Assembly (NCBI GenBank): GCA_947486785.1
Contig: CANKUU010000006.1
Span: 62,001 to 126,000 of the forward strand
DNA length: 64,000 nt
Source: an uncultured Flavobacteriaceae bacterium
GTDB lineage: Bacteria; Bacteroidota; Bacteroidia; Flavobacteriales; Flavobacteriaceae
Direction of reading: 5' to 3'
Below the pieces are notes generated by a model. That model saw only the letters and a program-made list of their open reading frames with translations, was not told the origin of the DNA and ran no database searches. Made by a program: the position numbers and the translations under genes. This document shows positions 6,674 through 21,586 of the stretch, piece after piece (position 1 is the first letter of the stretch; each line of letters opens with the position of its first letter).

Positions 6674-8905
6674 CTAGAAAGATACTATTATTTTTCCCTT
6701 TATAAAAAAAGGTGTTCCGGGTGTAAAATGAATTTCTTCAAAAGAATTTATTTCGTTTTGCAATCGACTTTCGGTAGCAAATTGGGTTTCGTTCCATTCT
6801 GAATCAAAGAGGTTTTCAATAATAAGTCCCAAGGTCCAATTTTTAACCGAGTAATTAAGATTAAGATCGCTAATAAAATAACCTTTGGCAATAATAGAGT
6901 TATCTTCATTTGCAGGTCTATCTTTTATAAAACGATAGTTTATTCCGCCAGAAAAGTTGCCTACATTTCTAAAAGATAGGCCACCAGAAGAAGTTAAATC
7001 AGGAGATAAAGGAATGTAGTCTTTTCCTTTAGGCTCTTCTGAGCTTCGTGCATGCGTATAATTCATATCTGCATTAGCATATAGCCAATCTGTCAATTGA
7101 TAACGTAATCCAAAATCAAGACCATATCGTTTTGTTTTTCCACTAGGTTCTACAATACCGGCGTCGCCAACATAAACAAATTCTTGGTCTAGATTTAAAT
7201 TCCATAATGACGCATTAACTACAAAGCGCTTTGATAATTTAAAAATACCTCCTAGGTCAAAGGAGTAAGCTGCGGGTAGAATCTCTTCTCCATTATTGGC
7301 AACAACCACTCTAGTATCATTAGAATGGTATCCGATACCTGTTTTTGCAAAAAGCTGAATTTTTGGAGAAGCAGCATAAATGATATTTAATTTAGGACCC
7401 AAAAATGCTTTAGTTTCGCTTTTGTTATCATAAGTTTCTGATAACAAATTTTCGTAATCAAATTTAAAATAGTCAATTCGCAATCCGGGGTTAATCGTCC
7501 ATTTGTTTTTAATATAATTTAAATTTATAAACCCATATCCATTTAATTCATCAACATTACCATAGGCTAACCGCTCTAAAAGTTCTTTTCTGTTTTTTGT
7601 TCTTGAAAGTTGTACATCATTAACGTCATCATAGCGAAAACCAATACCTGTCTCATATTTTAACTCAGAGCCATGATCTTTTAAATCAAAAAAGTTTTCA
7701 TATTTAGTTTCAAAACCCATTAATACTCGGTTTTCTTTTTGGCGTATTTGGTCGGCGTTAACAGGATCTTCTAAAAAGAATGTAAAATTTGAGAAAAGTT
7801 CAAAATCATATTTTGATACAAATGCTTTTGATGTTAGTTTAGATTGTTTGTTAATCTGTTTACTATGGTTTACCCAAAAGTTAGTTCGGCTTGTGTTACC
7901 CCCTTCGGTTGCATCAATAGCTCCAAAGCGACCAATAATGCCTTGATCAATAGCTCTTTGAGGAACTTGCCCTGAAGCATCCCATTTACTTTGAAAATGA
8001 GAAAGTGATAGGGTAAACTCTTGATCTTTGTGATTATTAAAGTTGTAACGACCCAAAATATTTATTCTGTTAAAATTCTGCGGAGCTATGAACGGGCCAT
8101 CAGATAAGGCTAGCTCAGAAGCAATATATGCATTATGATGATCGCTTTCTGTAAGCTTAAGTAACCCTACTGCCCTTATTGTGCCAAACATACCAGCTTC
8201 TAAGGATATTTGATTTTCTTCAATTTGTGATTTTGTTCTTAGATGAACATATCCAGCGGTATTAAAATTTCCTTTATCCGCATAGTAAGCACCTTTGCCA
8301 AAGTCTATGTTTTCTATAGTTTCAGGTATAATAAAGTGCATGTCTGCATATCCTTGTCCGTGGGCATGAGATACCATATTCACCGGTAAACCATCAACAT
8401 TTATAGCTATATCTGTTCCGTGGTCAATATCAAAACCTCGTAAAAAGATTTGCTCAGCTTTACCTCCCCCTGCATGTTGTCCAATGATTAAACCTGGTAC
8501 TTTTCGTAGTATTTCTTGAGAAGACTTTACAGGGTTTGCTTTTACATCAACATTTACAAGCTGACTTAATATGTTTAGTTTTGATACCAAAACAACCTGA
8601 TCCAAGGCTACTACATCTTCTATTAGCGTAATTTCAATTCGGCTGTTTAGTTGGTGTTCTTCAATTTCAATTTCTTTACTTTTAAACCCTAAAAAGGTGA
8701 ACATTATTTTATTGCTAACATCCACATTATTTAATTTAAAATAACCTGAAAAATTAGAATAAGTAAAACTTCCGGTTGTTTTGTTATACACGCCAACTCC
8801 TTGAATGGGTGCCCTATTTTGATCAACAATTATTCCACTAATTTCATGTGCATACATGCAAAAACTTAAAAGTGTTAAAATGTAGAATAGGAAATATTTT
8901 TTCAT
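6674..8905 (-). CDS. TonB-dependent outer-membrane receptor with carboxypeptidase-regulatory-like leader
   Basis: This 743-residue protein begins with a signal peptide (MKKYFLFYILTLLSFCMYA). A CarboxypepD-reg-like domain (about 20-100) follows, then a plug domain (about 120-230) and a long beta-barrel ending in Phe, as outer-membrane barrels do. The plug contains SHAHGQGYADMHF (His180, His182 and a third His), a histidine-bearing signature I associate with receptors found near HupE-type metal permeases; the ligand is not proven. It should import a substrate into the periplasm using TonB energy. It lies next to the NRPS locus on the same strand as the first NRPS gene, with 579 bases between them, and a HupE-like permease follows further on. 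Alternatives are a general siderophore or peptide receptor. Confidence 0.9.
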   Translation of the reverse strand: MKKYFLFYILTLLSFCMYAHEISGIIVDQNRAPIQGVGVYNKTTGSFTYSNFSGYFKLNNVDVSNKIMFTFLGFKSKEIEIEEHQLNSRIEITLIEDVVALDQVVLVSKLNILSQLVNVDVKANPVKSSQEILRKVPGLIIGQHAGGGKAEQIFLRGFDIDHGTDIAINVDGLPVNMVSHAHGQGYADMHFIIPETIENIDFGKGAYYADKGNFNTAGYVHLRTKSQIEENQISLEAGMFGTIRAVGLLKLTESDHHNAYIASELALSDGPFIAPQNFNRINILGRYNFNNHKDQEFTLSLSHFQSKWDASGQVPQRAIDQGIIGRFGAIDATEGGNTSRTNFWVNHSKQINKQSKLTSKAFVSKYDFELFSNFTFFLEDPVNADQIRQKENRVLMGFETKYENFFDLKDHGSELKYETGIGFRYDDVNDVQLSRTKNRKELLERLAYGNVDELNGYGFINLNYIKNKWTINPGLRIDYFKFDYENLLSETYDNKSETKAFLGPKLNIIYAASPKIQLFAKTGIGYHSNDTRVVVANNGEEILPAAYSFDLGGIFKLSKRFVVNASLWNLNLDQEFVYVGDAGIVEPSGKTKRYGLDFGLRYQLTDWLYANADMNYTHARSSEEPKGKDYIPLSPDLTSSGGLSFRNVGNFSGGINYRFIKDRPANEDNSIIAKGYFISDLNLNYSVKNWTLGLIIENLFDSEWNETQFATESRLQNEINSFEEIHFTPGTPFFIKGKIIVSF

Positions 8906-9484
8906 TGTATTACGTTTTTTAGTTTAGAACAATCGTACTCGGGTTTAGATCGCTTTTAAGAGAACAATTTTGTTGAATAAAATTATCTGTTTAATATGTT
9001 TAGGTTTTGCTACTTATTTTACTATTTACAGAGTTTTAATTGTATAAATTTTTTTTAGCGATTGTAACAGTGTTATGTGCGAACAAAAAAATAAAACTTT
9101 CCCATTTTTTGGTTATAAACTTTATTTCCCTAATGATTTTAAAGTTAAAATCGCATCGATATCTATTAATTTTCTTTTCTTCAGTACCTATTTGTTTTGA
9201 TTTGGTTTTTTTTAGGCCTACATAGTAAATTAATGTGGTTTGTAAAGGCAAATCTATGATTGGTTTTAATTGTATTTTGGTTTTTTAAAGCGCTTAGTTC
9301 ATTTCTGAGCACTACCTGAATATTAGCAATAAGCAAAATGTTAGCTTCAAAAACTGGTACGACCTTTACTAAATAATTACTCAATTTCACTTTAAAAACA
9401 AAATTGCATATACTAGCTAGCAAGGCTATTTGCTTAGCATTTTGTTGTTTTATTTTTAGTGAAGTTTCCAAAAGCATTTTTGCC
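8906..9484. other. Long AT-rich spacer between the NRPS gene and the TonB receptor gene
   Basis: No convincing gene is seen. Short open frames on both strands are AT-driven, and one overlaps the NRPS 3' end out of frame. The receptor promoter should lie here; TACGATTG (minus strand, near 8930) differs from TAnnTTTG by one base. No clear terminator was found. Confidence 0.5.
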
Positions 9485-12400
9485 TTATTCTTGTAATAGT
9501 GCTGTAAGTGTTTCTTCAATGTACTTGGCGTATTCTGCAATGGTTGGAAGTTCGAATATTTTATTGAGTGGAAATTTCATTTCAATCTCTTCATTAATTC
9601 TAGCAGTAACTCTAATTGCCGCAAGAGAATGGCCACCTAAACCAATAAAATTATCATGTATACCCACTTGTTTTAATCGAAGTACCTCTTTCCAAATTTC
9701 GGCCAACAGCTCTTCGATTTCACCACTAGGAGCAATAAAAGGGGTATCCATATCTAGCTGAGAGGTATTCAAAGACCTAAGTGACTCTTTGTCAACTTTA
9801 CCATTTTTAGTCAGCGGAAGTTCCTCTACGTATTTAAAATAATGAGGAATCATATACTCCGGTAATTTGTCTTTAAGGTGATTTGCAAGTTCTTTAGAAC
9901 TTAGTTTTTTATTACTAGTGTAATAACCAACCAATTTTTGTTGCTCTTGCTCACTTTCACTATTTTCTGTATAACCTATTTCTGTCATAATTCGCTTTAC
10001 CTCATTTTCATCAATTACTTCGTTAATTTCCTCTAAGGTTTCAGTTCTAGTTTTATGACTCATACGCACATCCCAACTGTATGGATAAGAATAGTTACTA
10101 TATCCTTTCTCTTTTTTATGAACGTAAATTCCCAATTGGTTAATGGTACAGTTAGTAGACCTTCCAGTATCCGTTGGTCTTATCCAATCTACTTTTTCTT
10201 TTAGGTAACGTAACATTTCTGACAAACTAACATCACTATATCGATAAAAATCAACAAATTGTACTTTATTAAAAGTATCATCATTATCAAAAGCCGTGGT
10301 GTTTAAAAATTCTTTAACTGCATCTTCTTCTTGGTGATAGAGTTTTCTTGCTTCTAGTATGGTTTTGTCAATGGTGCTTACATCTATATCTTTATCCCAA
10401 AATAACTCCTCTGTTAATCTAGTTTCAAAAAATTGCCCTCTTGAGAGCCCTGTTACAACAAACGGAATCTCCTTTTCTAATGCAATTTTAGTACTTAGGG
10501 TGTAGATAGTTTTAAAACAGCCATTACAAACGTTTTGATGACGGTGAAGGCTATCTACGAAAATTTTGTTCATATGTTCTGTAGTGCCATACATATGATC
10601 AACATTGAGTTTAGATACAATTCTATTGATATTTCCTTTTGCTTGATCAGATATATATCCATTGTCTAAAGTAAATGCAAGTACTCGGAGCCCCATATTA
10701 ACCAGTTGAGCTAAAATATAGGTACTGTCTTTTCCTCCACTAAGCAAAGAGATGCAATCGTAGGTAGGACTTTTACCTCTTTTAGACAATAAAATCTTTC
10801 GTAGTTCATCTTCAGTTTTAAAGTAGCGCTGTGCTTGATCTTTATACCCCTTAAATGCGTTGCAAACATGGCATACACCGTCTTCATCAAAATCGGTGTT
10901 TGGGTAATTTGAAGGTAAACCACATAGGGTACAATTGATCACTTCATGTTCAGGAATTGCTTTTTCATTTTCTAAAACAACAACCGCAGCGTTTTCTATC
11001 GCATTATGCTTTAATAGGTTAGACTCTATATCCTCTAATTCTATTCGGAAACCTTTTAATTTTACTTGCTCATCTTTTCTACCTAAAAATTCAAATTCAT
11101 TATTTTTATTAATCCGCGCCAAATCACCAGTATGGTATAACGTACCACTCGAAAGCTCTGGAATGCTAATAAATTTTTCTGCCGTTAATTTTGGTAAATT
11201 TAAATAACCGTCCGATAAGCCGTTACCGCTAATGTAAACTGTGCCTATTACTCCTTTGGGTACGGGATTTTTAAAATCATCTAGAATATAAGCATTCATG
11301 CCAGTTATAGGCATTCCGACTGGTACTGTTGAGTTTAGATGTAGTTCTGATTTGTACTGCGAAACGATACAGCCTACTGTTGCTTCAGTTGGTCCATACT
11401 CGTTAAAAATACGAAGCCCTAAACCAAAATTTCGTTGTATGGCTTTGGCTGTTTCTGTTTTAAAAGTTTCACCACCAACAATCATAGTTTTTATTTGTGA
11501 TGCTGAATTACTACTGTCTTTTACTAGAGCAAGATGAGAAGGAGTAAGCTTTATGCTGTTTACTTTATTCTCCTCTAAAACTTCCATCAATGAAATATCT
11601 GGCCCTGTATCACTTTCTTTGTATACAATAAGTTTACCTCCAGTAATAAGGGGTAAAAAAGTAGCGGTTATAGTTAAGTCAAAACCGATAGAAGTAAAAA
11701 GCGGAAATATAAAATCTTGATCGGTGCGATAGTAACTGGCAGCCCACGAAAGGTAATTTGCAAGCGCACCATGAGATATTAAAACACCTTTAGGCTTTCC
11801 TGTTGAGCCCGAGGTATACAGAATATAAGCAGTATCTTTAAAATTGATGATACTTCGTTTTAATTCGTTTTGTATAGTGGCTAAATGTTCTTTTAGCGCA
11901 TCAATTAAAACAACGGACCCCAAACCATTATTAAACTTTGATATTAATGCAGTTTCGGTAATTATAAGATCACATTTAGAATCTGAAAGAATATATTTTA
12001 CTCGTTCAGACGGTTGATCAGATGCGATAGGAACAAAAACAGCACCTATTTTTAAAATAGCCAAAACGCTAATGATATAGTCTGATGATCGAAATAAGTG
12101 AACGGCAACTGGTTGCCCTTTTTTGACTCCTTTTTGCTGCAAAAATTGTCCTAATTGATTTGCCTTTTTATCTATTTCACCAAAGTTGAAATGAGTTTGT
12201 TTTTGTTGTAGTGCAATTTTTGTACTGTGCTGTTGAGCACAAGCTTCAAATTTTGAAATAATTAAATCTTTTGGGCTTATTTCAGTACTATTGTTATTGA
12301 TACCAATTGGTTTTGATATCAAAGAAGGTTTTTCAATTAAAGTTGTACTATCTTCAATAAATGCATCAAATAAATTTAAAAAATGCGTAGTTATGGTATT

Positions 12401-13612
12401 GGTTAAATGCGTATCAAAAACACTATGATTCACATCAAATAAAATTTCAATTTCTCCAGTAGCATCAAAATCAATTATATGACACCTCAATTGATGTGAA
12501 ACATCAATATGACCCGGGTGTAACCAAGTAGATTTTACTTTGTATCCTGCAAAGTCTGAAAAATTAGCACTAATATAATTTAGAATTATATTGAAACTTC
12601 CACTAATTTCTGGTCTTATCATACCTGGCTGCGCATATCGCAAAAAGTTATTGCTTTCCAGTTTTATTCGTTCTAAAACACTAGCAAAAGTGTCTCCTTT
12701 TTTAAATTCAACTACAATCGGAAAAATTTCAATAAATAAGCCAACTGTTTCTTTAAAAGTTTTTGATGTACGATTATGTATGGGCGCCCCAAAGGCAAAC
12801 TTATGCTGCCCGCTTATTCTAAAAATATAACTCGCAAATAGTGCAGATAGCACATTAAATAAAGATAAATCTTTTGTTAGGCTTTTAAATTCTTCTTTTT
12901 GGGCAAATACCTTTAGCTTTTTTGAGCGAGTTGCCCCTAAGGGTAGTGATATTCTAGTGGATGATGTAGTTTTTTGGTTTGATCGAACTCCATATAAAGC
13001 TGGAGCCTGTTTTAAATCAACCAAAGTATCACTCCAATATGCTTGTATTTCCTCCTTGTCATCAAGGTTTAAATGTTCTTTTTCAAAAGCTATATACGTC
13101 TTATAAGAGGGCACATTACCAAATGAATACGTGCTTTTACCATCAAAATGCGCATATAAAGAAGAAAGATATTTAAATACTAGAGTAGCAGAAACCGCAT
13201 CAGTAATTAAATGGTGCATATTAAGATACCAAACAAATTTTGAAGCTTCTATTTTTAATAAGGCGCAATCAAATGATTTTTTTGTGAGGTCTAATTTTTT
13301 TTGCGATCGTTTTTGTAACCAGAGGTCAATATCTTCCGATGTATTAGAAAAATCAAAAAAGTCAATCTTATGTTCTAGAATTGAAAGAACAGATTGATTA
13401 GGTATGCCATTATCTTCATCGAAGACAATTCGAAACGCATCCACTTCAGCAATAAGTTTTTCAAATGCGATCGCGAAAATTTCAGGTCTTATTTGCCCGG
13501 CTATTCTAAAAGAATGTGTGGTATTATGAAGAGGTGTATTTGGATTTAATTTTTGACCAGCCCAAATTTGTAATTGACTTTGTGTTAAGGGACATTTCGT
13601 TAAACTTTTCAT
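9485..13612 (-). CDS. NRPS module C-A-PCP with a PP-loop ATPase inserted in the adenylation domain; predicted Asn-activating
   Basis: In 1375 residues I see a condensation domain (about 7-430, HHLITDA at 133-139), an adenylation domain (about 450-890 and 1223-1290; A3 TSGSTGKPKG near 600; A8 GRKDEQVKLKGFRIE near 840; A10 NGKVDK near 1266) and a carrier domain (LGGHS, pantetheine Ser1329). There is no thioesterase. My alignment by eye to PheA positions gives the specificity code D-L-T-K-I-G-E-V-G-K, the asparagine-type code. Between A8 and A9, at about 890-1222, lies a PP-loop ATPase: Cys pairs C894/C897 and C914/C917 with DFDEDGVC, the ATP loop SGGKDST at 958-964, CNGC at 1029-1032 and another Cys near 1155. 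The closest remembered family is N-acetyl-sugar amidotransferase (WbpG/PseA type). The module should add Asn, perhaps chemically altered, to an acyl or aminoacyl group. It lies 12 bases after the free carrier-protein gene. Confidence 0.93.
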   Translation of the reverse strand: MKSLTKCPLTQSQLQIWAGQKLNPNTPLHNTTHSFRIAGQIRPEIFAIAFEKLIAEVDAFRIVFDEDNGIPNQSVLSILEHKIDFFDFSNTSEDIDLWLQKRSQKKLDLTKKSFDCALLKIEASKFVWYLNMHHLITDAVSATLVFKYLSSLYAHFDGKSTYSFGNVPSYKTYIAFEKEHLNLDDKEEIQAYWSDTLVDLKQAPALYGVRSNQKTTSSTRISLPLGATRSKKLKVFAQKEEFKSLTKDLSLFNVLSALFASYIFRISGQHKFAFGAPIHNRTSKTFKETVGLFIEIFPIVVEFKKGDTFASVLERIKLESNNFLRYAQPGMIRPEISGSFNIILNYISANFSDFAGYKVKSTWLHPGHIDVSHQLRCHIIDFDATGEIEILFDVNHSVFDTHLTNTITTHFLNLFDAFIEDSTTLIEKPSLISKPIGINNNSTEISPKDLIISKFEACAQQHSTKIALQQKQTHFNFGEIDKKANQLGQFLQQKGVKKGQPVAVHLFRSSDYIISVLAILKIGAVFVPIASDQPSERVKYILSDSKCDLIITETALISKFNNGLGSVVLIDALKEHLATIQNELKRSIINFKDTAYILYTSGSTGKPKGVLISHGALANYLSWAASYYRTDQDFIFPLFTSIGFDLTITATFLPLITGGKLIVYKESDTGPDISLMEVLEENKVNSIKLTPSHLALVKDSSNSASQIKTMIVGGETFKTETAKAIQRNFGLGLRIFNEYGPTEATVGCIVSQYKSELHLNSTVPVGMPITGMNAYILDDFKNPVPKGVIGTVYISGNGLSDGYLNLPKLTAEKFISIPELSSGTLYHTGDLARINKNNEFEFLGRKDEQVKLKGFRIELEDIESNLLKHNAIENAAVVVLENEKAIPEHEVINCTLCGLPSNYPNTDFDEDGVCHVCNAFKGYKDQAQRYFKTEDELRKILLSKRGKSPTYDCISLLSGGKDSTYILAQLVNMGLRVLAFTLDNGYISDQAKGNINRIVSKLNVDHMYGTTEHMNKIFVDSLHRHQNVCNGCFKTIYTLSTKIALEKEIPFVVTGLSRGQFFETRLTEELFWDKDIDVSTIDKTILEARKLYHQEEDAVKEFLNTTAFDNDDTFNKVQFVDFYRYSDVSLSEMLRYLKEKVDWIRPTDTGRSTNCTINQLGIYVHKKEKGYSNYSYPYSWDVRMSHKTRTETLEEINEVIDENEVKRIMTEIGYTENSESEQEQQKLVGYYTSNKKLSSKELANHLKDKLPEYMIPHYFKYVEELPLTKNGKVDKESLRSLNTSQLDMDTPFIAPSGEIEELLAEIWKEVLRLKQVGIHDNFIGLGGHSLAAIRVTARINEEIEMKFPLNKIFELPTIAEYAKYIEETLTALLQE

Positions 13613-13624
13613 TATTATAGTACG

Positions 13625-13855
13625 TTACTTAGTAGAAAAATATCGAGTAATTTTTTCTACTGTTTCAAAATTGGCTATGTTTAAATCTTCTGGAGGTACG
13701 CGTTTATCATATTTTTTTTCTAAATATAGCACAAGTCTCATCATGCCAAGTGAGTCTAATACCCCGCCATCTAAGAGATTTTCACTCTCACTAAGCTTAA
13801 GATTAGAGCTTTCTAACACCATGTTTTTGATGTACGAAATTATTATTTCATTCAT
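13625..13855 (-). CDS. Free-standing acyl/peptidyl carrier protein
   Basis: This small four-helix carrier protein of 76 residues has the phosphopantetheine motif LDSLGMMRL. The Ser is modified by a 4'-phosphopantetheinyl transferase, for which a candidate is encoded at 20870. I chose the ATG at 13855; a TTG at 13870 would add five residues (the second being Asp), but it is a weaker start. The protein resembles the DltC-like free carriers that receive a substrate from a separate AMP ligase; no such ligase is encoded nearby. It lies 12 bases upstream of the NRPS gene on the same strand. The likely role is to present the starter group to the condensation domain of that module. Confidence 0.88.
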   Translation of the reverse strand: MNEIIISYIKNMVLESSNLKLSESENLLDGGVLDSLGMMRLVLYLEKKYDKRVPPEDLNIANFETVEKITRYFSTK

Positions 13856-14223: not shown

Positions 14224-15495
14224 ATGAAAAAAATTCTGTTATCTCTGCTAGTCATTTTCTTTTTATTTCCAAGTTTGACTAAAGCACATCAGCCCAACCA
14301 AAGTATTATATATATGCGTGTTTATCAAAAAGCAGGTATAGATGCTCGTTTTGAAATTAACGTAAATCAGTTAAATGATGCCCTAGGACTTAAGCTACCA
14401 AAATACCCGAAATGGAAAGATGTTTCGCCTCATATTAATCGGATAAAGGCATATTTATTAAAACAAACTAAATTTTCTTCTGAATTAGGAGCGCATGATA
14501 TCGTTTTTACCGAAGCAGATGTTAGTTCTGTTTGGACTAGCTTTGGTTATTTTATAAAAGTACCTTTTCACTTAAAGAACACTGAAAATTTACCAGAGAA
14601 TCTGAAAGTAACCTATAATGCTTTTATCGACGAAATACCCAATACCCGAAACTTGCTCACTATGGAGTATAACTGGAAAGCAGGTTTGGTTAATAATGAA
14701 ACCATGTTTGCTTTAGATTTTACGAAAGGTGAAGCAACAAAAATCTTAAATTTAAGCGAAAAATCGATTTGGAAGGGTTTTGTAGCCATGTTAAAGCAGG
14801 GTATTTGGCATATCTGGATCGGTTTAGATCATATTCTTTTTCTTTTAGCCTTAATTTTACCATCAGTAGTACGCAGAAAAGAGGTTGTAGCTTCATCTTC
14901 AGCGAACATTAATGATAAACAGCCTCATAATATTTGGAACTGGCATCCTGTAAAGAAATTTAAACCCGCCTTTTTATATATCGTTAAAATTGTAACGTTT
15001 TTTACGATTGCCCATACCATAACCTTAAGTTTGGCTGCCCTTAATATTGTTGTTTTACCATCAAGGTTTGTAGAATCTATAATTGCATTATCAATAGGCC
15101 TTGCCGCTATGCATAATATTCGACCCATCTTTAAAGGTAAAGATTGGATAATTGCTTTTGTTTTTGGACTTTTTCATGGCTTTGGTTTTGCGAGTGTAAT
15201 GGGAGAATTAGGTTTTAAAGGTGAGTTTTTAACTTTAACCTTGTTAGGGTTTAATATTGGTGTTGAAATTGGTCAATTGTGCATTATAGCCGCTATTTTT
15301 CCGATTTTATATTTTTTAAGAAACTTAAAATTTTACCCTAAGTTTTTGGTTTATCTTTCTGCATTTCTAATTGTTATTTCTATATATTGGCTTGTTGAAA
15401 GAGCTTTTGATATTGACTTACCTTTAGACGAAAAAATAATGACCACAGGTGGCGACATACTACGCTTTTTAGGGTTAAGAAGACCAATTGATTAG
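14224..15495 (+). CDS. HupE/UreJ-family membrane protein (putative metal permease)
   Basis: The 423-residue protein starts with a signal peptide (cleavage probably after SLTKA). A periplasmic N-terminal domain of about 160 residues follows, then a membrane part (about 185-405) with about six helices. Conserved His-containing stretches are visible: HIWIGLDHILFLLALI, AHTITLSLAAL, MHNIRPI and FGLFHGFGFAS. HupE/UreJ proteins are linked to nickel or other metal uptake; which metal is used here cannot be read from the sequence. The gene lies 17 bases before the second NRPS gene and probably heads its operon. This is an unusual partner for an NRPS and suggests either a metal-linked product or an older TonB-receptor/permease pair that became separated by NRPS genes. 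Confidence 0.85.
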   Translation: MKKILLSLLVIFFLFPSLTKAHQPNQSIIYMRVYQKAGIDARFEINVNQLNDALGLKLPKYPKWKDVSPHINRIKAYLLKQTKFSSELGAHDIVFTEADVSSVWTSFGYFIKVPFHLKNTENLPENLKVTYNAFIDEIPNTRNLLTMEYNWKAGLVNNETMFALDFTKGEATKILNLSEKSIWKGFVAMLKQGIWHIWIGLDHILFLLALILPSVVRRKEVVASSSANINDKQPHNIWNWHPVKKFKPAFLYIVKIVTFFTIAHTITLSLAALNIVVLPSRFVESIIALSIGLAAMHNIRPIFKGKDWIIAFVFGLFHGFGFASVMGELGFKGEFLTLTLLGFNIGVEIGQLCIIAAIFPILYFLRNLKFYPKFLVYLSAFLIVISIYWLVERAFDIDLPLDEKIMTTGGDILRFLGLRRPID

Positions 15496-15512: not shown

Positions 15513-18500
15513 TTGTTAGAGAAAGACCAAAATGAAAGTAAAGTTTCCTTACTCGCGCAATGGAAATTAAAGAAGAAAGATAAAGCGGTCCTATCAGGTA
15601 TTTCCAAAGCGCCAGAAGGAGCTGTTATTCCACTATCAAAAGGGCAGCGAAGGCTGTGGTTTTTGCAACAAATGTATGCTGATAGCTCTGTATATAACTA
15701 CTCTGAAAGCTACACTTTTAAGGGTGATTTGCATCTAGAAAACCTTTGCTCAGCCCTAAAAATGGTTTGTAATGCACATAGTATTTTGCGTGCAACTTAT
15801 CATATGGAAGATGGCCAATTGTTTATGAAGTTTGCAGAAGAATCGCAGATAGAATTTTCAAATTTCGATCTATCAAATCTGCCAACTGAAGTAGCATTAA
15901 AAAAGGCCAATGATATTATGCTTGATAAAGCAAAATACGCTTTTAACCTCAAAGTTCCTCCTCAAGTACTTGCGACCATAATAAAGATATCACCTTCAAA
16001 GCATATACTTCTTTTAACCTTACATCACATTTATACAGATAAATGGTCGATGGGCTTGTTAAGAGAAGAATGGGCAAGTTATTATAGGTCTTTAAATGAA
16101 GGAAGCACACCGCGAATAAAGCAATATGATATACAATATGGCGATTTTACCTATTGGCAGCAACAGCAAGAAGAAGATCCTAAACAACTACAATATTGGA
16201 AAGAGAAGCTCTCTGGTGAAATACCCACGTTAAATTTACCTCTCGATTTTTCAAGACCAACTGTTACAAGTTTTCATGGTGGGGCTAGTCCAACTCAATA
16301 TTTTTCTAAAGATCTCTCTCAACAAATTTTAAATGTATCAAAAGCATTAGATGTAACACCTTATGTGCTATGTTTATCGGTATACTATGTACAATTGTTT
16401 AGATATAGCGGGCAAGAAGATATTTTAATTGGTTCTCCTGTGGCTAGCAGAGATCAAAGAGCGATTGAAAGTTTAATAGGTTTTTTTAATGATACTATTG
16501 TCTTAAGAACCTCTATAATACCAGAAATGTCGTTTGCAACATTCGTAAAAAAAGTGAAGCAAACTACGCTAGAAGCTTTTTCAAACAAAGACATCGCATT
16601 TGATACTTTAGTCAACAAGTTAAAAATTGAAAGATCACGTGATATAAATCCGTTTTTTCAGACCATGTTTTTGTATCATGCTGTTCCGAAGACACCAATT
16701 TTTGCCGAAGATGTAGTTTTAGAACATTCTTTTTTTGACGGTGGTGTATCAAAGTTCGACCTTACACTTTATATATCTGAAGAAGACGGAATTCTATCAT
16801 CAACTTTTGAGTACGCAAGTGATCTATTTAAAGCAGCTACCATAGAGCGGTTTCAAGAACATTTTAAAAACTTGTTAAAAGCGGTTGTCGCTAATCAAAA
16901 TCAACAGCTTTCAAAGCTCTCTTTTTTAAGTAAAAAAGAACAGCTTTTTATGACCTCTAATTCCTTAAACAAAGCAAATGCCTTTTCTTCTTTTAATGCA
17001 ATTCATGAGGTTTTTGTTTCAGTAGCTAAGACAAAGGGCACAAAAACTGCTATAGCTTTTAAGAATGAAACAATGGATTATAAGCAGTTAAATCATCAAT
17101 CTGATGTTTTAGCTCTTGAAATTTTGAAAACCACTAAAGGAAAAAATGAAATTGTTGCTTTATGTTTTGAGAAATCTTTAGATATGATTGTGGGGCTTTT
17201 GGGCATTTTAAAAGCAGGATGCGCATATTTACCTATCGATGCTAAATACCCACAGGATAGAATCGACTTTATGCTCAAAGATGCTCAGATACAATTGGTA
17301 CTCAGTTATGCTAAATCTACTGCAGTCTTAGCGCATAAAAATCTTACGCTTTTGGTATTAGATGAAATAGATTATACTGTTACAACAAAAGAAATAAAAT
17401 TACCCTCGGTACCATCAAATGCCATGGCGTATATGATTTATACCTCTGGTAGTTCTGGTCGTCCAAAAGGAGTACCTATAACTCATAAAAATATACTTAG
17501 TTCTACGGCAGCTAGACTAGAGTTTTATAAGGATGCGCCAGAATGTTTTTTATTACTTTCATCAATATCTTTTGATAGTTCTAAAGCAGGTATTTTTTGG
17601 ACACTTACAACCGGAGGAACTTTAGTAGTTGCCGAAGATCAAATAGAACAAGATGTTACTAAAGTTGAAGCAATTATAGCAAAACATCAGATTACCCATA
17701 CCTTAATGCTACCTTCTTTATATGACTTGGTTTTGCAATATTGTAATCCGAAAAAACTTCAAAGTTTAAACACAGTTATCGTGGCCGGTGAGTCGTGTGC
17801 AACGGACTTGTGCCTAAGGCATTTTTCTACTTTAGATTCAGTGAATATGGTAAACGAATATGGGCCTACCGAAGCCACGGTGTGGTGTATTGCGCATAAT
17901 ATTAAAAAGCAAGACATTAGCCATAAGCCTGTTGCAATAGGAAAACCAATTGCTTCTGCCGAAATATACCTTTTAGACCCATATTTAAATTTGGTGCCTA
18001 TAGGGGCAGCAGGAGAAATTTATATAGGTGGCGAAGGCTTGTCAGGGGAATATTTTAATAGACCAGAGTTAACAGCAAAAGCATATATTGATAATCCTTT
18101 TGATGAAACTGCTACAACAAAACTGTATAAAACAGGTGATTTTGCACGTTATTCCGATGACGGTACTATTGAGTTTTTGGGCAGAAATGATCAGCAAGTT
18201 AAAATACGCGGATACCGCATTGAAATAGATGAAATAGAACGAGCGATTTTAGAAGAGGAGGCTATTACAAATTGTGTTGTTCTTGTAGATATATTTGGAG
18301 CAAAAAAATCTAAACGATTAGTCGCATGTTTTACTGCAAATAGTAAATTGAATAGCGCCGAACTGAAAAATAGACTAAAGTTAAAGTTGCCAGAATATAT
18401 GGTGCCTAGTCTTCTTCAGCAAATAGAACATTTTCCGAAATTACCTAACGGTAAAATAGATAAAACGCTCCTTAAAAATTTAGCAAAAAAAGGTACGGAG

Positions 18501-19520
18501 TTAACAAATGAAGTTACAAAAAGAGAACTCACAAAATTAGAGTCTAAATTAGTGCTATTATGGCAAAAAGTGCTTCAAATTGAAGGTATAAAGATTGATG
18601 ATAATTTTTTCGATTTAGGCGGCGATTCTATTTTAAGCATTCAATTTATAGCCGAGGCAAAAAAAGAAGGCTTAACCCTCTCACCTAATCAAATATTTGA
18701 TTATCAAACTATTGAAAAATTAGCAACTTTTCTAGAGCTTAAAACGGATAAGGTTGAAGATTGGAACTATTTAGTGGCCATACGTAAAGAAGGTTTTAAG
18801 AAACCAATCTTTTGTATTCATGCTGGTGGAGGGCATATTTTTTTCTATAATATCTTACGCAAATATATACCGAAAGAACGCCCTATTTATGCCTTACAAG
18901 CAGCTGGCGTGTATGGTGAAAAACAGATGCCTAAAGATATAGAACAAATGGCTACTGATTACCTCAAAGCCATTCGTTCTATTCAGCCTAAAGGCCCCTA
19001 TAACATTGTGGTGTACTGCTTTAGTGTTGCAGTTGGCCATTATATGGCCCATCTTTTAAGTTTGCAAAATGAAGCGGCAAATTTAATAGTAATAGATACC
19101 ATGGCAGACCCATGGAATTTGAATACACCAAAACGCTTAAAAATGCGAATAAAAGGCTTTGTAAAAAGGACGATGAATAATCCTTTAAAGGCAATTTCAG
19201 GTATGATTTTAGATCGATGGGTTTACAAAAAAGCAAACTTTAAAGCGGCCAATTCTCCTGAAGAACAAGCTTTAGTGAATATTACTAGAAACCTTGCGGC
19301 GATTAGTACAGCTTATAAATGGCATCCCATTCAGTCTAAAGTTTCTATTGTTTTAACCAATAAACTAGAACAAAGTATCAATGATGAGATTGTAAACTCT
19401 TGGCAAGAATTAGTAAAAACAAAAGTAGAAGTAGTAACAACTGCCGGAGAACATAAAAATATTTTTGAAGAGCCTGATGTAGCCGATGTTGCTTCAAAAA
19501 TCGAAAATTTTTCTATTTAA
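15513..19520 (+). CDS. NRPS termination module C-A-PCP-TE with Cys in the thioesterase nucleophile position
   Basis: The frame starts at TTG 15513; the nearby ATG 15508 hits a stop after two codons, and an AAAGGA motif sits just upstream. The 1335 residues hold a condensation domain (HHIYTDKWS at 171-179), an adenylation domain (A3 TSGSSGRPKG at 644-653; A10 NGKIDK near 979), a carrier domain (LGGDS, Ser1039) and a thioesterase (about 1090-1335). My reading of the specificity code is D-S-A-M-I-A-E-V-W-K. I cannot assign it; the A-E-V part is reminiscent of aromatic-type codes. In the thioesterase the usual GxSxG is replaced by V-Y-C-F-S with Cys1169 at the nucleophile position; the catalytic His is probably in GEHKNIF near the end. 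The module should add the last residue and release the product. Confidence 0.93.
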   Translation: MLEKDQNESKVSLLAQWKLKKKDKAVLSGISKAPEGAVIPLSKGQRRLWFLQQMYADSSVYNYSESYTFKGDLHLENLCSALKMVCNAHSILRATYHMEDGQLFMKFAEESQIEFSNFDLSNLPTEVALKKANDIMLDKAKYAFNLKVPPQVLATIIKISPSKHILLLTLHHIYTDKWSMGLLREEWASYYRSLNEGSTPRIKQYDIQYGDFTYWQQQQEEDPKQLQYWKEKLSGEIPTLNLPLDFSRPTVTSFHGGASPTQYFSKDLSQQILNVSKALDVTPYVLCLSVYYVQLFRYSGQEDILIGSPVASRDQRAIESLIGFFNDTIVLRTSIIPEMSFATFVKKVKQTTLEAFSNKDIAFDTLVNKLKIERSRDINPFFQTMFLYHAVPKTPIFAEDVVLEHSFFDGGVSKFDLTLYISEEDGILSSTFEYASDLFKAATIERFQEHFKNLLKAVVANQNQQLSKLSFLSKKEQLFMTSNSLNKANAFSSFNAIHEVFVSVAKTKGTKTAIAFKNETMDYKQLNHQSDVLALEILKTTKGKNEIVALCFEKSLDMIVGLLGILKAGCAYLPIDAKYPQDRIDFMLKDAQIQLVLSYAKSTAVLAHKNLTLLVLDEIDYTVTTKEIKLPSVPSNAMAYMIYTSGSSGRPKGVPITHKNILSSTAARLEFYKDAPECFLLLSSISFDSSKAGIFWTLTTGGTLVVAEDQIEQDVTKVEAIIAKHQITHTLMLPSLYDLVLQYCNPKKLQSLNTVIVAGESCATDLCLRHFSTLDSVNMVNEYGPTEATVWCIAHNIKKQDISHKPVAIGKPIASAEIYLLDPYLNLVPIGAAGEIYIGGEGLSGEYFNRPELTAKAYIDNPFDETATTKLYKTGDFARYSDDGTIEFLGRNDQQVKIRGYRIEIDEIERAILEEEAITNCVVLVDIFGAKKSKRLVACFTANSKLNSAELKNRLKLKLPEYMVPSLLQQIEHFPKLPNGKIDKTLLKNLAKKGTELTNEVTKRELTKLESKLVLLWQKVLQIEGIKIDDNFFDLGGDSILSIQFIAEAKKEGLTLSPNQIFDYQTIEKLATFLELKTDKVEDWNYLVAIRKEGFKKPIFCIHAGGGHIFFYNILRKYIPKERPIYALQAAGVYGEKQMPKDIEQMATDYLKAIRSIQPKGPYNIVVYCFSVAVGHYMAHLLSLQNEAANLIVIDTMADPWNLNTPKRLKMRIKGFVKRTMNNPLKAISGMILDRWVYKKANFKAANSPEEQALVNITRNLAAISTAYKWHPIQSKVSIVLTNKLEQSINDEIVNSWQELVKTKVEVVTTAGEHKNIFEEPDVADVASKIENFSI

Positions 19521-19547: not shown

Positions 19548-20864
19548 ATGAAAATCGTAGTAGTAGCCCCATATTTAAAAGGTAGGCTACATGCAACTTT
19601 TGCCCTTGTTTCGAAGCTTGAAAGCGAAGGACATATTGTAATATATCTTAGCTCGGCTGAAATAGGAAAAATAATTGAAACACAAGGTTTTTCTTATTAT
19701 GAAATACCTCCTATAAATTTTAGTTTTTCTACTTCAGAACTAGAAAATTTATCGACTTGGACACAGAAGGCAAGCTATTTTTTTAAAAATTTCAGGTCTC
19801 ATTATCAAAAAGGAAAAAAGATAATGCATTTAGACATTTATGAAGAAATTTTATGTAAAATAGAGCCCGATCGGGTATTAGTAGATGTAGAACTACATGA
19901 TTTTGTTTTTGCTGCTACTGCGTTAAAGATTCCGGTAGTCTTATTCCATACCTGGTTTTCCGATAAAATTAGCTTTTCATTGCCATCAATTCGAAGTACA
20001 ATAATACCTGGATATGGTTGGTCTGGAAGTGCCATTGGTATCGCCATAAATTGGATTAAAATGCGACTCATGGTATATGGTAGGTTAAGTGTAAATAAAA
20101 TAAAATTTAGTAATTATAGACGGGCGGTATTACGTAAATATGCAAAAGAAGTTGGTTTTCCTCGCTCGGGCTTACTTACGAACACTTTACCTCCTCATTT
20201 TAGCTTTACAAAACTTCCTATTTTAACTTTATGTATGTCAGAGATGGATTTTCCCCAAAAAGTTCCTGAAAACATCACATATGTAGGCCCTATGGTTTAT
20301 CAAAATAGAGAGAAGATAACAACAGCTACTAGCGATTTAGAAATAAAAAAAATATTGGATCGATTTGCGGATAAGAAAATAATTTATTGTTCGGTTAGTA
20401 GTTATTTAAAAGGAGATGTATCTTTTTTAAAAAAAGTTATTGAAGCAGTTTCAAATCAAAAGGATTGGGTTTTAATTTTGAGTGCAGGTGGTAATATTGA
20501 TTTAAATGATTTACAAACGACATCGCCCAATGTATTTTTGTTTAGCTGGGTTCCGCAGTTACTAGTGCTTTCAAAGGCAGATTGCAGTATTAATCACGGC
20601 GGTGTTAATAGCATTAACGAATGTGTACATTATGCGGTGCCAATGCTAGTATATTCAGGTAAGAATTTTGACCAAAATGGCAATGCAGCTCGTGTTACTT
20701 ATCATAAATTGGGTATCCGAGGTAATAAAGATAAGGTCACAAGTAAAGAGTTAAAACAAAATATCGAACACGTTTTGTCGAACCCCGTTTATAAGGTGAA
20801 TATGAATAAAATGAACAAAAACTACAAGAACTATTTAAAGCGGCCATTAACACCTTTACTATAA
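19548..20864 (+). CDS. GT1-family (UGT/macrolide-type) glycosyltransferase
   Basis: This protein of 438 residues has the two-Rossmann GT-B layout. The C-terminal nucleotide-sugar signature is clear: FSWVPQLLVLSKADCSINHGG, followed by NSINECVHYAVPMLVYS. The N-terminus (MKIVVVAPYLKGRLHATFALV) is the acceptor-side start typical of enzymes that glycosylate small hydrophobic molecules. There is no signal peptide. The gene lies 27 bases after the thioesterase-ending NRPS gene and 5 bases before the phosphopantetheinyl transferase gene, so it very probably belongs to the same operon. The likely role is to add a sugar to the NRPS product, for tailoring, export or self-protection. Sugar and acceptor cannot be read from the sequence. 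Confidence 0.88.
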   Translation: MKIVVVAPYLKGRLHATFALVSKLESEGHIVIYLSSAEIGKIIETQGFSYYEIPPINFSFSTSELENLSTWTQKASYFFKNFRSHYQKGKKIMHLDIYEEILCKIEPDRVLVDVELHDFVFAATALKIPVVLFHTWFSDKISFSLPSIRSTIIPGYGWSGSAIGIAINWIKMRLMVYGRLSVNKIKFSNYRRAVLRKYAKEVGFPRSGLLTNTLPPHFSFTKLPILTLCMSEMDFPQKVPENITYVGPMVYQNREKITTATSDLEIKKILDRFADKKIIYCSVSSYLKGDVSFLKKVIEAVSNQKDWVLILSAGGNIDLNDLQTTSPNVFLFSWVPQLLVLSKADCSINHGGVNSINECVHYAVPMLVYSGKNFDQNGNAARVTYHKLGIRGNKDKVTSKELKQNIEHVLSNPVYKVNMNKMNKNYKNYLKRPLTPLL

Positions 20865-20869
20865 ATAAA

Positions 20870-21586
20870 ATGAAATTTAAACATCGTCAATTAAAGAATA
20901 ATACAATTGATGCCTGGTATTGCGATTTTAATTTAAATAGCAGTAATTTGGATTATTATGTTAGTGTTCTTTCAAAAAACGAAATAGAAAGAGCAGACCG
21001 ATTTAAGTTTAAAAGTGACAGAAATTGTTATGTGATAACAAGAGCCGTTCTTAGAATATTATTAGCTAGCTATTCTAAAAAAGACCCTAAATCATTCCAA
21101 TTTAAGTATACTGATTTTGGTAAACCCTACCTTGAAACTTCAAATATTCCAAAATTTAATGTGTCTCATTCTGGTAATATGGCAGCTTTATGTTTCTACA
21201 ATAACTGCCCTTTAGGCATAGATATTGAAAAAATTAAGCATGATTTTAACGTGCAAGAATTAGCACAAAATTTTTTTTCTAAAAATGAAATTAAGGCATT
21301 AACTACTGAAAAGGTTGAAAACCAAACAAGGGCTTTTTTTCGCTGTTGGACCAGAAAGGAAGCCTTTATTAAAGCAGAAGGTAGTGGGCTTAGTTTTCCG
21401 TTAGATAAATTTACAGTATCGTTACAAGAAGATTTTAATGCAGAATTATTAGAAACTCATTGGAACTCTAAAGCGAGAGAAAATTGGAAGCTTTTTTCAT
21501 TCGTTCCATCAAAGGGTTTTATTGCTGCTGTGGCGGTAAAATGTCTTAAAGCAACTATAAATTATTACAATTGGGACGAGCTCTAA
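20870..21586 (+). CDS. Sfp-type 4'-phosphopantetheinyl transferase
   Basis: The 238-residue protein carries the Sfp-family motifs: FNVSHSGNMAALCF, the Mg-binding LGIDIE, and FFRCWTRKEAFIKAEGSGL. Enzymes of this family transfer the phosphopantetheine arm of coenzyme A to the Ser of carrier domains. Here the targets should be the free carrier protein and the two NRPS carrier domains (Ser1329 and Ser1039 of the two NRPSs). The gene is the last of the plus-strand NRPS operon, five bases after the glycosyltransferase gene. The length is normal and no motif is missing. Confidence 0.92.
   Translation: MKFKHRQLKNNTIDAWYCDFNLNSSNLDYYVSVLSKNEIERADRFKFKSDRNCYVITRAVLRILLASYSKKDPKSFQFKYTDFGKPYLETSNIPKFNVSHSGNMAALCFYNNCPLGIDIEKIKHDFNVQELAQNFFSKNEIKALTTEKVENQTRAFFRCWTRKEAFIKAEGSGLSFPLDKFTVSLQEDFNAELLETHWNSKARENWKLFSFVPSKGFIAAVAVKCLKATINYYNWDEL

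Follow-up and report, generated by a model that had tools for sequence, protein, structure and literature searches.

What a PP-loop domain may be doing inside the adenylation (A) domain of a non-ribosomal peptide synthetase (NRPS), and what kind of compound such a synthetase may be making, are the questions raised by a 64,000-nucleotide stretch of DNA from an uncultured Flavobacteriaceae bacterium, which we refer to as the window. The synthetase concerned, NRPS1, is composed of the following parts.

9485..13612, minus strand: NRPS1, C-A(insert)-PCP, 1375 aa (Pfam, NCBIfam)
12314..13597, minus strand: condensation domain, NRPS1 residues 6-433 (Pfam PF00668)
10961..12250, minus strand: N-terminal core of the A domain, reaching beyond A8 (residues 455-884), code DLTKIGEVG (Pfam, code reading)
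about 9953..10960, minus strand: inserted PP-loop domain of about 335 residues (about 885-1220), a probable AMDH domain (profile, alignment)
10862..10933, minus strand: four-cysteine motif C894/C897...C914/C917, which in 8WEX, a WbuX structure, is a zinc site
10721..10741, minus strand: PP-loop SGGKDST, residues 958-964 (motif)
10517..10528, minus strand: CNGC (C1029, C1032), cysteines 1 and 2 of the CXXC-C triad
10148..10150, minus strand: C1155 (NC-x-IN), cysteine 3 of the CXXC-C triad
9797..9949, minus strand: C-terminal piece of the A domain with A9/A10, residues 1222-1272 (Pfam PF13193)
9518..9709, minus strand: PCP of NRPS1, residues 1302-1365 (Pfam PF00550)

An earlier note on this DNA had described an A domain interrupted between A8 and A9 by a PP-loop domain with SGGKDST, two CxxC pairs, a CNGC and a further cysteine, and all of this is found, C1155 being the further cysteine. 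Pfam and NCBIfam leave a gap in NRPS1 between the A core, which ends at residue 884 after A8, and the A9/A10 piece, which starts at residue 1222; the A8/A9 loop is described as the usual insertion point in A domains (PMC8949500). An AlphaFold2 model of the A-insert-A-PCP portion reached a mean pLDDT of 84.0 and a pTM of 0.59. The parts flanking the insert matched A-domain structures, among them the methyltransferase-interrupted domain of TioS; A-domain folds fill the match list, which does not cover the insert. A plus-strand reading of the insert coordinates was rejected, the frame being full of stops and the insert lying on the minus strand.

We also considered an assembly artefact or a one-off fusion and rejected it, since the fusion recurs in relatives of several phyla. 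With the own genome included, it occurs in 13 of 59 relatives (open frames of 1374-1417 aa; any match in 16) and in 27 of 396 genomes of the family (frames of 1373-1426 aa). A phylum-wide draw gave the fusion in 2 of 395 genomes and any match (E 1e-8) in 58, the others lying in frames of 342-680 aa. In the phylum to which G805 belongs, 4 of 247 genomes have the fusion and 18 have any match; in that of G806 the figures are 3 and 9 out of 296, one of the three fusion frames (967 aa) reaching near a contig end. From 98 confirmed relatives, obtained by a scan of species genomes with two peptide patterns of close relatives, 80 loci were kept, and in all 80 the insert is in frame with the A5 motif, A10 or the PCP, some frames being cut by contig ends. 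The recurrence in 13/59 relatives, 27/396 family genomes and 80/80 named loci thus speaks against an artefact. The tetracysteine, the PP-loop and the CXXC with its third cysteine are likewise present in 80 of 80 loci, so that no loss of the ATP-loop residues, which the earlier note had named as a possible refutation, is seen in the homologues. The PP-loop insertion in the NRPS1 A domain is confirmed as real, conserved and intact in its motifs.

According to record titles, the carriers belong to Flavobacteriaceae, Saprospiraceae, Chitinophagales, Rhodohalobacter, Acidobacteria and Acidimicrobiia, with one Gemmatimonadetes MAG and Rhodobacterales as well. Relatives of the insert are also encoded on plasmids, namely of Roseovarius and Pseudohalocynthiibacter (50-52% identity) and of one Streptomyces (37%); in the remaining 13 of 16 plasmid records the match is weaker or incomplete, and the usual annotation is N-acetyl sugar amidotransferase. 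On the plasmid of Streptomyces sp. NBC_01216 (L213, 13062-17112) the 37% identical insert begins close to where an annotated gene starts, and that gene comes after another NRPS gene and asnB. The PP-loop and CXXC-C are kept there, and the insert may be the point at which the A domain is split. The Rhodobacterales plasmids (L212, 6780-20469, and L214) carry a cluster of A domain, methyltransferase, acyl-CoA dehydrogenase, carrier, HupE and NRPS genes, which adjoins polysaccharide genes; there is no TonB receptor among the rows listed and, for L214, no NRPS among the listed rows at the match.

The code of the interrupted A domain is as constant as the fusion itself. DLTKIGEVG, which we take to be an Asn code, agrees with the Asn-type code read in the earlier note, and all 78 readable loci of the 80 are of the same type (DLTKIGEVG in 69, DLSKIGEVG in 5, DLTKIGEIG in 4; an insert-marked row was lacking for L090 and L125). 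The survey of homologues proposed earlier consequently has a clear outcome, the fusion being conserved together with the Asn-type code in 78/78. Five more distant fusions were tried, and gave DLTKVGEVG in L249 and L253 and DLTKIGEVA in L248, L212 and L252 not being read.

A profile search of the isolated insert places it in a PP-loop family: it matches TIGR03573 (WbuX) over nearly the full length, with E 9.6e-37 and 127.2 bits against a cut-off of 203.2, and there are weak matches to QueC and LarE as well. The best sequence match in the PDB is 8cnz (E 7.1e-9), whose Cys-x-x-Cys aligns with the CNGC. In the tree all 19 sampled inserts form one group with 100/100 support, and nearest to this clade stand two long-branched standalone proteins, the placement of which is unsure. 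One of these two nearest standalone relatives with CXXC-C (L250, 9454-10530; locus L225) adjoins an asparagine-synthase-like amidotransferase gene and O-antigen ligase-like genes. Our first alignment of standalone proteins comprised 17 of 24 loci, 13 above and 4 below the WbuX cut-off, 7 having been skipped by pattern. The tetracysteine is common to 16 of these 17, and the CXXC-C triad is found in none of the 13 above the cut-off, one of which has two of the three cysteines; among the four below it, L176 has the full triad and L175 the third cysteine with a CxxC nearby. Altogether the triad is present in 19/19 inserts versus a loose pattern in 8/49 standalone relatives, in some of which the third cysteine is probably not equivalent; alignment A2 used 48 of 75 candidate references.

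The assignment to WbpG/PseA-type ATPases made in the earlier note therefore holds only in part. The kinship stands, given the near-full TIGR03573 match, the tetracysteine and the PP-loop; membership does not, because the score is below the cut-off, the inserts form their own clade (100/100) and the triad is in 0 of 13 WbuX proteins, and judged by these features the insert is not a true or standard WbpG/PseA amidotransferase. Were it nonetheless a genuine WbpG/WbuX-type enzyme, it would join the Asn side chain with ammonia to give an amidine. The TIGR03573 match recurs in 36 of 36 inserts scanned, which with the shared tetracysteine and PP-loop favours such a reading, but we hold it very improbable in view of the window score of 127.2 bits against a cut-off of 203.2, the separate clade and the extra CXXC-C; moreover, the recurring gene families that were identified, which are a part of all recurring families, include no glutaminase. 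A catalytically dead insert with a structural or regulatory role is the least probable of all the readings considered, as 80/80 loci retain the PP-loop, the two CxxC pairs and the triad, and the same motif residues are invariant in 23 sequences, namely the window and another 22 inserts that are 38-82% identical to it.

The earlier note knew of no characterised NRPS of this build, and here the literature corrects it. CysH of the cystobactamid pathway has a 38-kDa domain within a stand-alone Asn-specific A-T module; with this domain, T-bound Asn loses 18 Da, which was read as formation of beta-cyano-L-alanine, and upon its deletion the isoasparagine and cyanoalanine products were abolished (PMC7966384). 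A counterpart domain in AlbIV of the albicidin pathway is 69% identical to that of CysH (PMC7966384; PMC8949500); dehydration was proposed for AlbIV, and an SGGKD motif and a relation to alpha-ANH were described for the Alb04 domain (PMC8949500). A BLAST search reported with CysH found numerous AMDH homologues, all within Asn-specific A domains and none tied in that account to a known metabolite (PMC7966384). An NRPS of this build is thus already known, and the NRPS1 insert is most simply, and probably, another AMDH domain. It shares with AMDH the position within an A domain, the T domain next to it, the Asn code, the size and the SGGKD; this architecture, code, size and motif, together with the published homologue survey, are the grounds for the assignment, and 80/80 inserts in A-domain context with 78/78 Asn-type codes fit that survey well. 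Relying on the published descriptions of CysH and AlbIV, we lean, with some confidence, towards a domain of the AMDH kind (amide dehydratase/aminomutase) that would make cyanoalanine or isoasparagine. The side-chain amide chemistry suggested in the earlier note, which had a nitrile among its options, gains support from the same analogy.

In the proposed scheme, the A domain, to judge from its code, would activate L-Asn and load it on the module's own PCP, and the carrier arm would bring it to the insert. The PP-loop, as may be expected from the superfamily, would bind ATP and activate the side-chain amide oxygen; loss of the activated oxygen would give beta-cyano-L-alanine, or a rearrangement L-isoasparagine, both by analogy with CysH. 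A [4Fe-4S] cluster would sit on the CXXC-C triad near the ATP site. The modified residue would then be condensed by NRPS1 and a second synthetase, NRPS2, whose TE would release the product, and the cluster as a whole would most likely make and re-import a metal-binding peptide.

It is the triad that gives the main competing explanation its weight. The spacing from the D of the PP-loop to CXXC is 67 in 71 of 80 loci and that from CXXC to C is 123 in 68 of 80, while in 9 loci both spacings are shifted by three, since the first CxxC match there comes three residues before the usual place. CtaC and LarE have a similar [4Fe-4S] site, and from this likeness we infer that the insert holds a predicted [4Fe-4S] cluster on its triad. 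CtaC, an Fe-S PP-loop enzyme, acted only when its substrate was bound to a carrier; D77/S78 belong to its ATP site, and its cluster cysteines are C154, C157 and C284 (PMC6772006). Its spacings, 77 and 127 (D77 being taken as the D of SGGxDS), are close to the 67 and 123 of the insert (PMC6772006), and a CXXC-C cluster site is also described for LarE of Thermotoga maritima, LarE-Tm and TtuA both inserting sulfur with such a site (PMC9283937). On account of this likeness thioamide formation stays a live rival: the insert would be a CtaC-like thioamide synthetase embedded in cis, whose PP-loop activates an amide, either that of the Asn side chain or one of the upstream peptide on the carrier, and sulfide on the three-cysteine [4Fe-4S] cluster replaces the oxygen, giving a soft metal ligand, which would suit a chelator.

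Set against the AMDH assignment, besides the fact that CXXC-C is best known in sulfur-inserting enzymes, are the place of NRPS1 as an elongation module, CysH being stand-alone and its product shuttled, and the nitrile or isoasparagine, which is no obvious metal ligand. Against a thioamide synthetase it can be said that many of the hosts here are marine Flavobacteriaceae, whose lifestyle is aerobic. CtaC, in contrast, is active only in the absence of oxygen, and most of its homologues are from anaerobes (PMC6772006). Furthermore, CysH, the sole characterised A(Asn)-insert-T protein that we found, is described as dehydrating or isomerising Asn, and dehydration is what has been put forward for AlbIV. 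Purified CysH was dark brown, yet a CxxCxxxC motif was not found and the mechanism was given as unknown (PMC7966384); the CXXC-C triad would explain the colour, if CysH has it too. We regard a thioamide synthetase as unlikely on balance, and still more doubtful is the fuller proposal, in which a [4Fe-4S] thioamide synthetase acting in cis would make thio-asparagine as the soft ligand in a so far undescribed peptide metallophore for copper or nickel, one that would be widespread in marine Bacteroidota and in further phyla. An AMDH-type domain thus stays our preferred reading.

The genes around NRPS1 bear on what the product may be used for, and include the following.

6674..8905, minus strand: TonB-dependent receptor (Pfam), with a relative in 63/80 loci
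13625..13855, minus strand: stand-alone carrier protein, 76 aa, LDSLG, just upstream of NRPS1 (PF00550, E 3e-7)
14224..15495, plus strand: HupE/UreJ_2-type metal permease (PF13795, E 6.8e-45), with a relative in 60/80 loci
15513..19520, plus strand: NRPS2, C-A-PCP-TE (Pfam, NCBIfam)
19548..20864, plus strand: UDP-glycosyltransferase-like protein (macrolide GT family), accessory, with a relative in 13/80 loci
20870..21586, plus strand: 4'-phosphopantetheinyl transferase (profile match)

The divergent HupE-type permease and NRPS2 are recurrent around NRPS1, as is the TonB receptor downstream. The receptor (63/80) and HupE (60/80) occur together in 54 loci, as they do in the window, and at least one of the two in 69. 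A small protein of about 150 aa, often His-rich and by eye with a membrane segment, is encoded between NRPS1 and the receptor in 45/80 loci; in the window no reading frame for it was seen at 8906-9484. Other recurrent genes are ornithine cyclodeaminase-like (26/80) and acyl-CoA dehydrogenase (33/80), and many loci have a stand-alone A domain. Stand-alone carrier genes of at least 80 aa are present in 27/80 loci, a lower bound, as genes below 80 aa were missed by the gene caller. We take the combination of cyclodeaminase-like protein, acyl-CoA dehydrogenase, stand-alone A domain and carrier to be reminiscent of prolyl-to-pyrrolyl starter enzymes. A dedicated starter A domain that would load the 76-aa carrier was not found in the own genome, where NRPS2 and NRPS1 are the best matches; the third-best is a partial A-domain-like stretch in a 1893-aa frame (C38, 5437-5985; locus L269), a sign that a further NRPS or related synthetase is probably encoded in this genome. 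A gene of about 265 aa without a Pfam match, by eye like a SAM-dependent methyltransferase, stands beside the cluster in 7/80 loci (for example L150, 11600-12397), and in L120 and L123 a sulfotransferase-family gene (Pfam on the L123 copy only) directly precedes the starter A domain, which suggests a putative sulfated variant of the product. A simple scan of 50 intergenic stretches between HupE and NRPS1 gave no inverted repeat common to them. Among the papers listed by our literature search none dealt with this very cluster, though this does not prove that none exists.

The regular company of a TonB receptor and/or a HupE-type permease (69/80 loci) suggests that the product of the cluster is a metal-binding peptide, a putative metallophore. 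The 11 loci with neither gene speak against a metal role; 7 of them lie on stretches shorter than 12 kb and 4 (L137, L138, L148, L149) on 17-19 kb. Nickel genes (nikR, HoxN or hydrogenase) stand by plasmid relatives of the receptor in 5 of 7 neighbourhoods inspected, hand-picked from 49 matching records; near the relative in C. necator, a HoxN gene is about 4.4 kb away. These five nickel-neighboured relatives are 30-33% identical; for the two closest receptor relatives, which are from Bacteroidota and 44-48% identical, the listed neighbours include no nickel gene. A search of the own genome gave no urease and no NiFe hydrogenase; among 34 carrier genomes urease was clear in 1 and marginal in 1, with NiFe hydrogenase in 4, and among 28 non-carrier genomes urease was again clear in 1 and marginal in 1, with hydrogenase in 2. 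In HupE, the residues H22, H196, D202, H203, H264 and H318 are kept in 58/58 aligned proteins and H297 in 57/58 (sequences of 380-450 aa, others being left out). Copper, like nickel no more than a candidate metal, was considered on the basis only of the conserved His just past the HupE signal peptide, placed by eye, and of general thioamide chemistry. In most of the loci the insert marks a conserved cluster with metal-uptake genes (69/80).

Compared with known systems, NRPS1 resembles TioS (5wmm) in the place of its insertion, which in both lies between A8 and A9 (PMC8949500), but TioS has received a SAM methyltransferase and NRPS1 a PP-loop domain. The N-acetyl sugar amidotransferases (WbpG/WbuX/PseA) have, like the insert, a tetracysteine and an SGGXDS PP-loop, the tetracysteine zinc site and the PP-loop being described in the paper on the WbuX-type structure 8WEX (LpNASAT); their substrates are sugars, and the insert differs from them by its sub-cut-off score and its CXXC-C triad. 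With CtaC of closthioamide biosynthesis, which combines a PP-loop and a CXXC-C [4Fe-4S] site and acts on carrier-bound substrate, the insert shares the PP-loop and the three-cysteine motif, whereas CtaC is stand-alone and works in trans on backbone amides, outside any A domain; CtaC homologues are reported near NRPS genes, and an A-domain insertion goes unmentioned in the main text (PMC6772006). The likening of the triad to the [4Fe-4S] site of CtaC, LarE and TtuA seems to be new here, and it offers a concrete hypothesis open to mutation; new as well is the occurrence of a TonB receptor and/or a HupE-type permease in 69/80 loci. The closest parallel is the CysH/AlbIV domain, of about 38 kDa or 342 aa, with SGGKD, inside an Asn A domain and followed by a carrier, as against about 335 residues and SGGKDST in the window (PMC7966384; PMC8949500). 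In CysH the A-T module stands alone and CysB shuttles its product (PMC7966384), whereas NRPS1 is an in-line C-A-PCP elongation module; the CysH and AlbIV pathways lead to topoisomerase inhibitors, while the cluster of the window carries genes for metal uptake.
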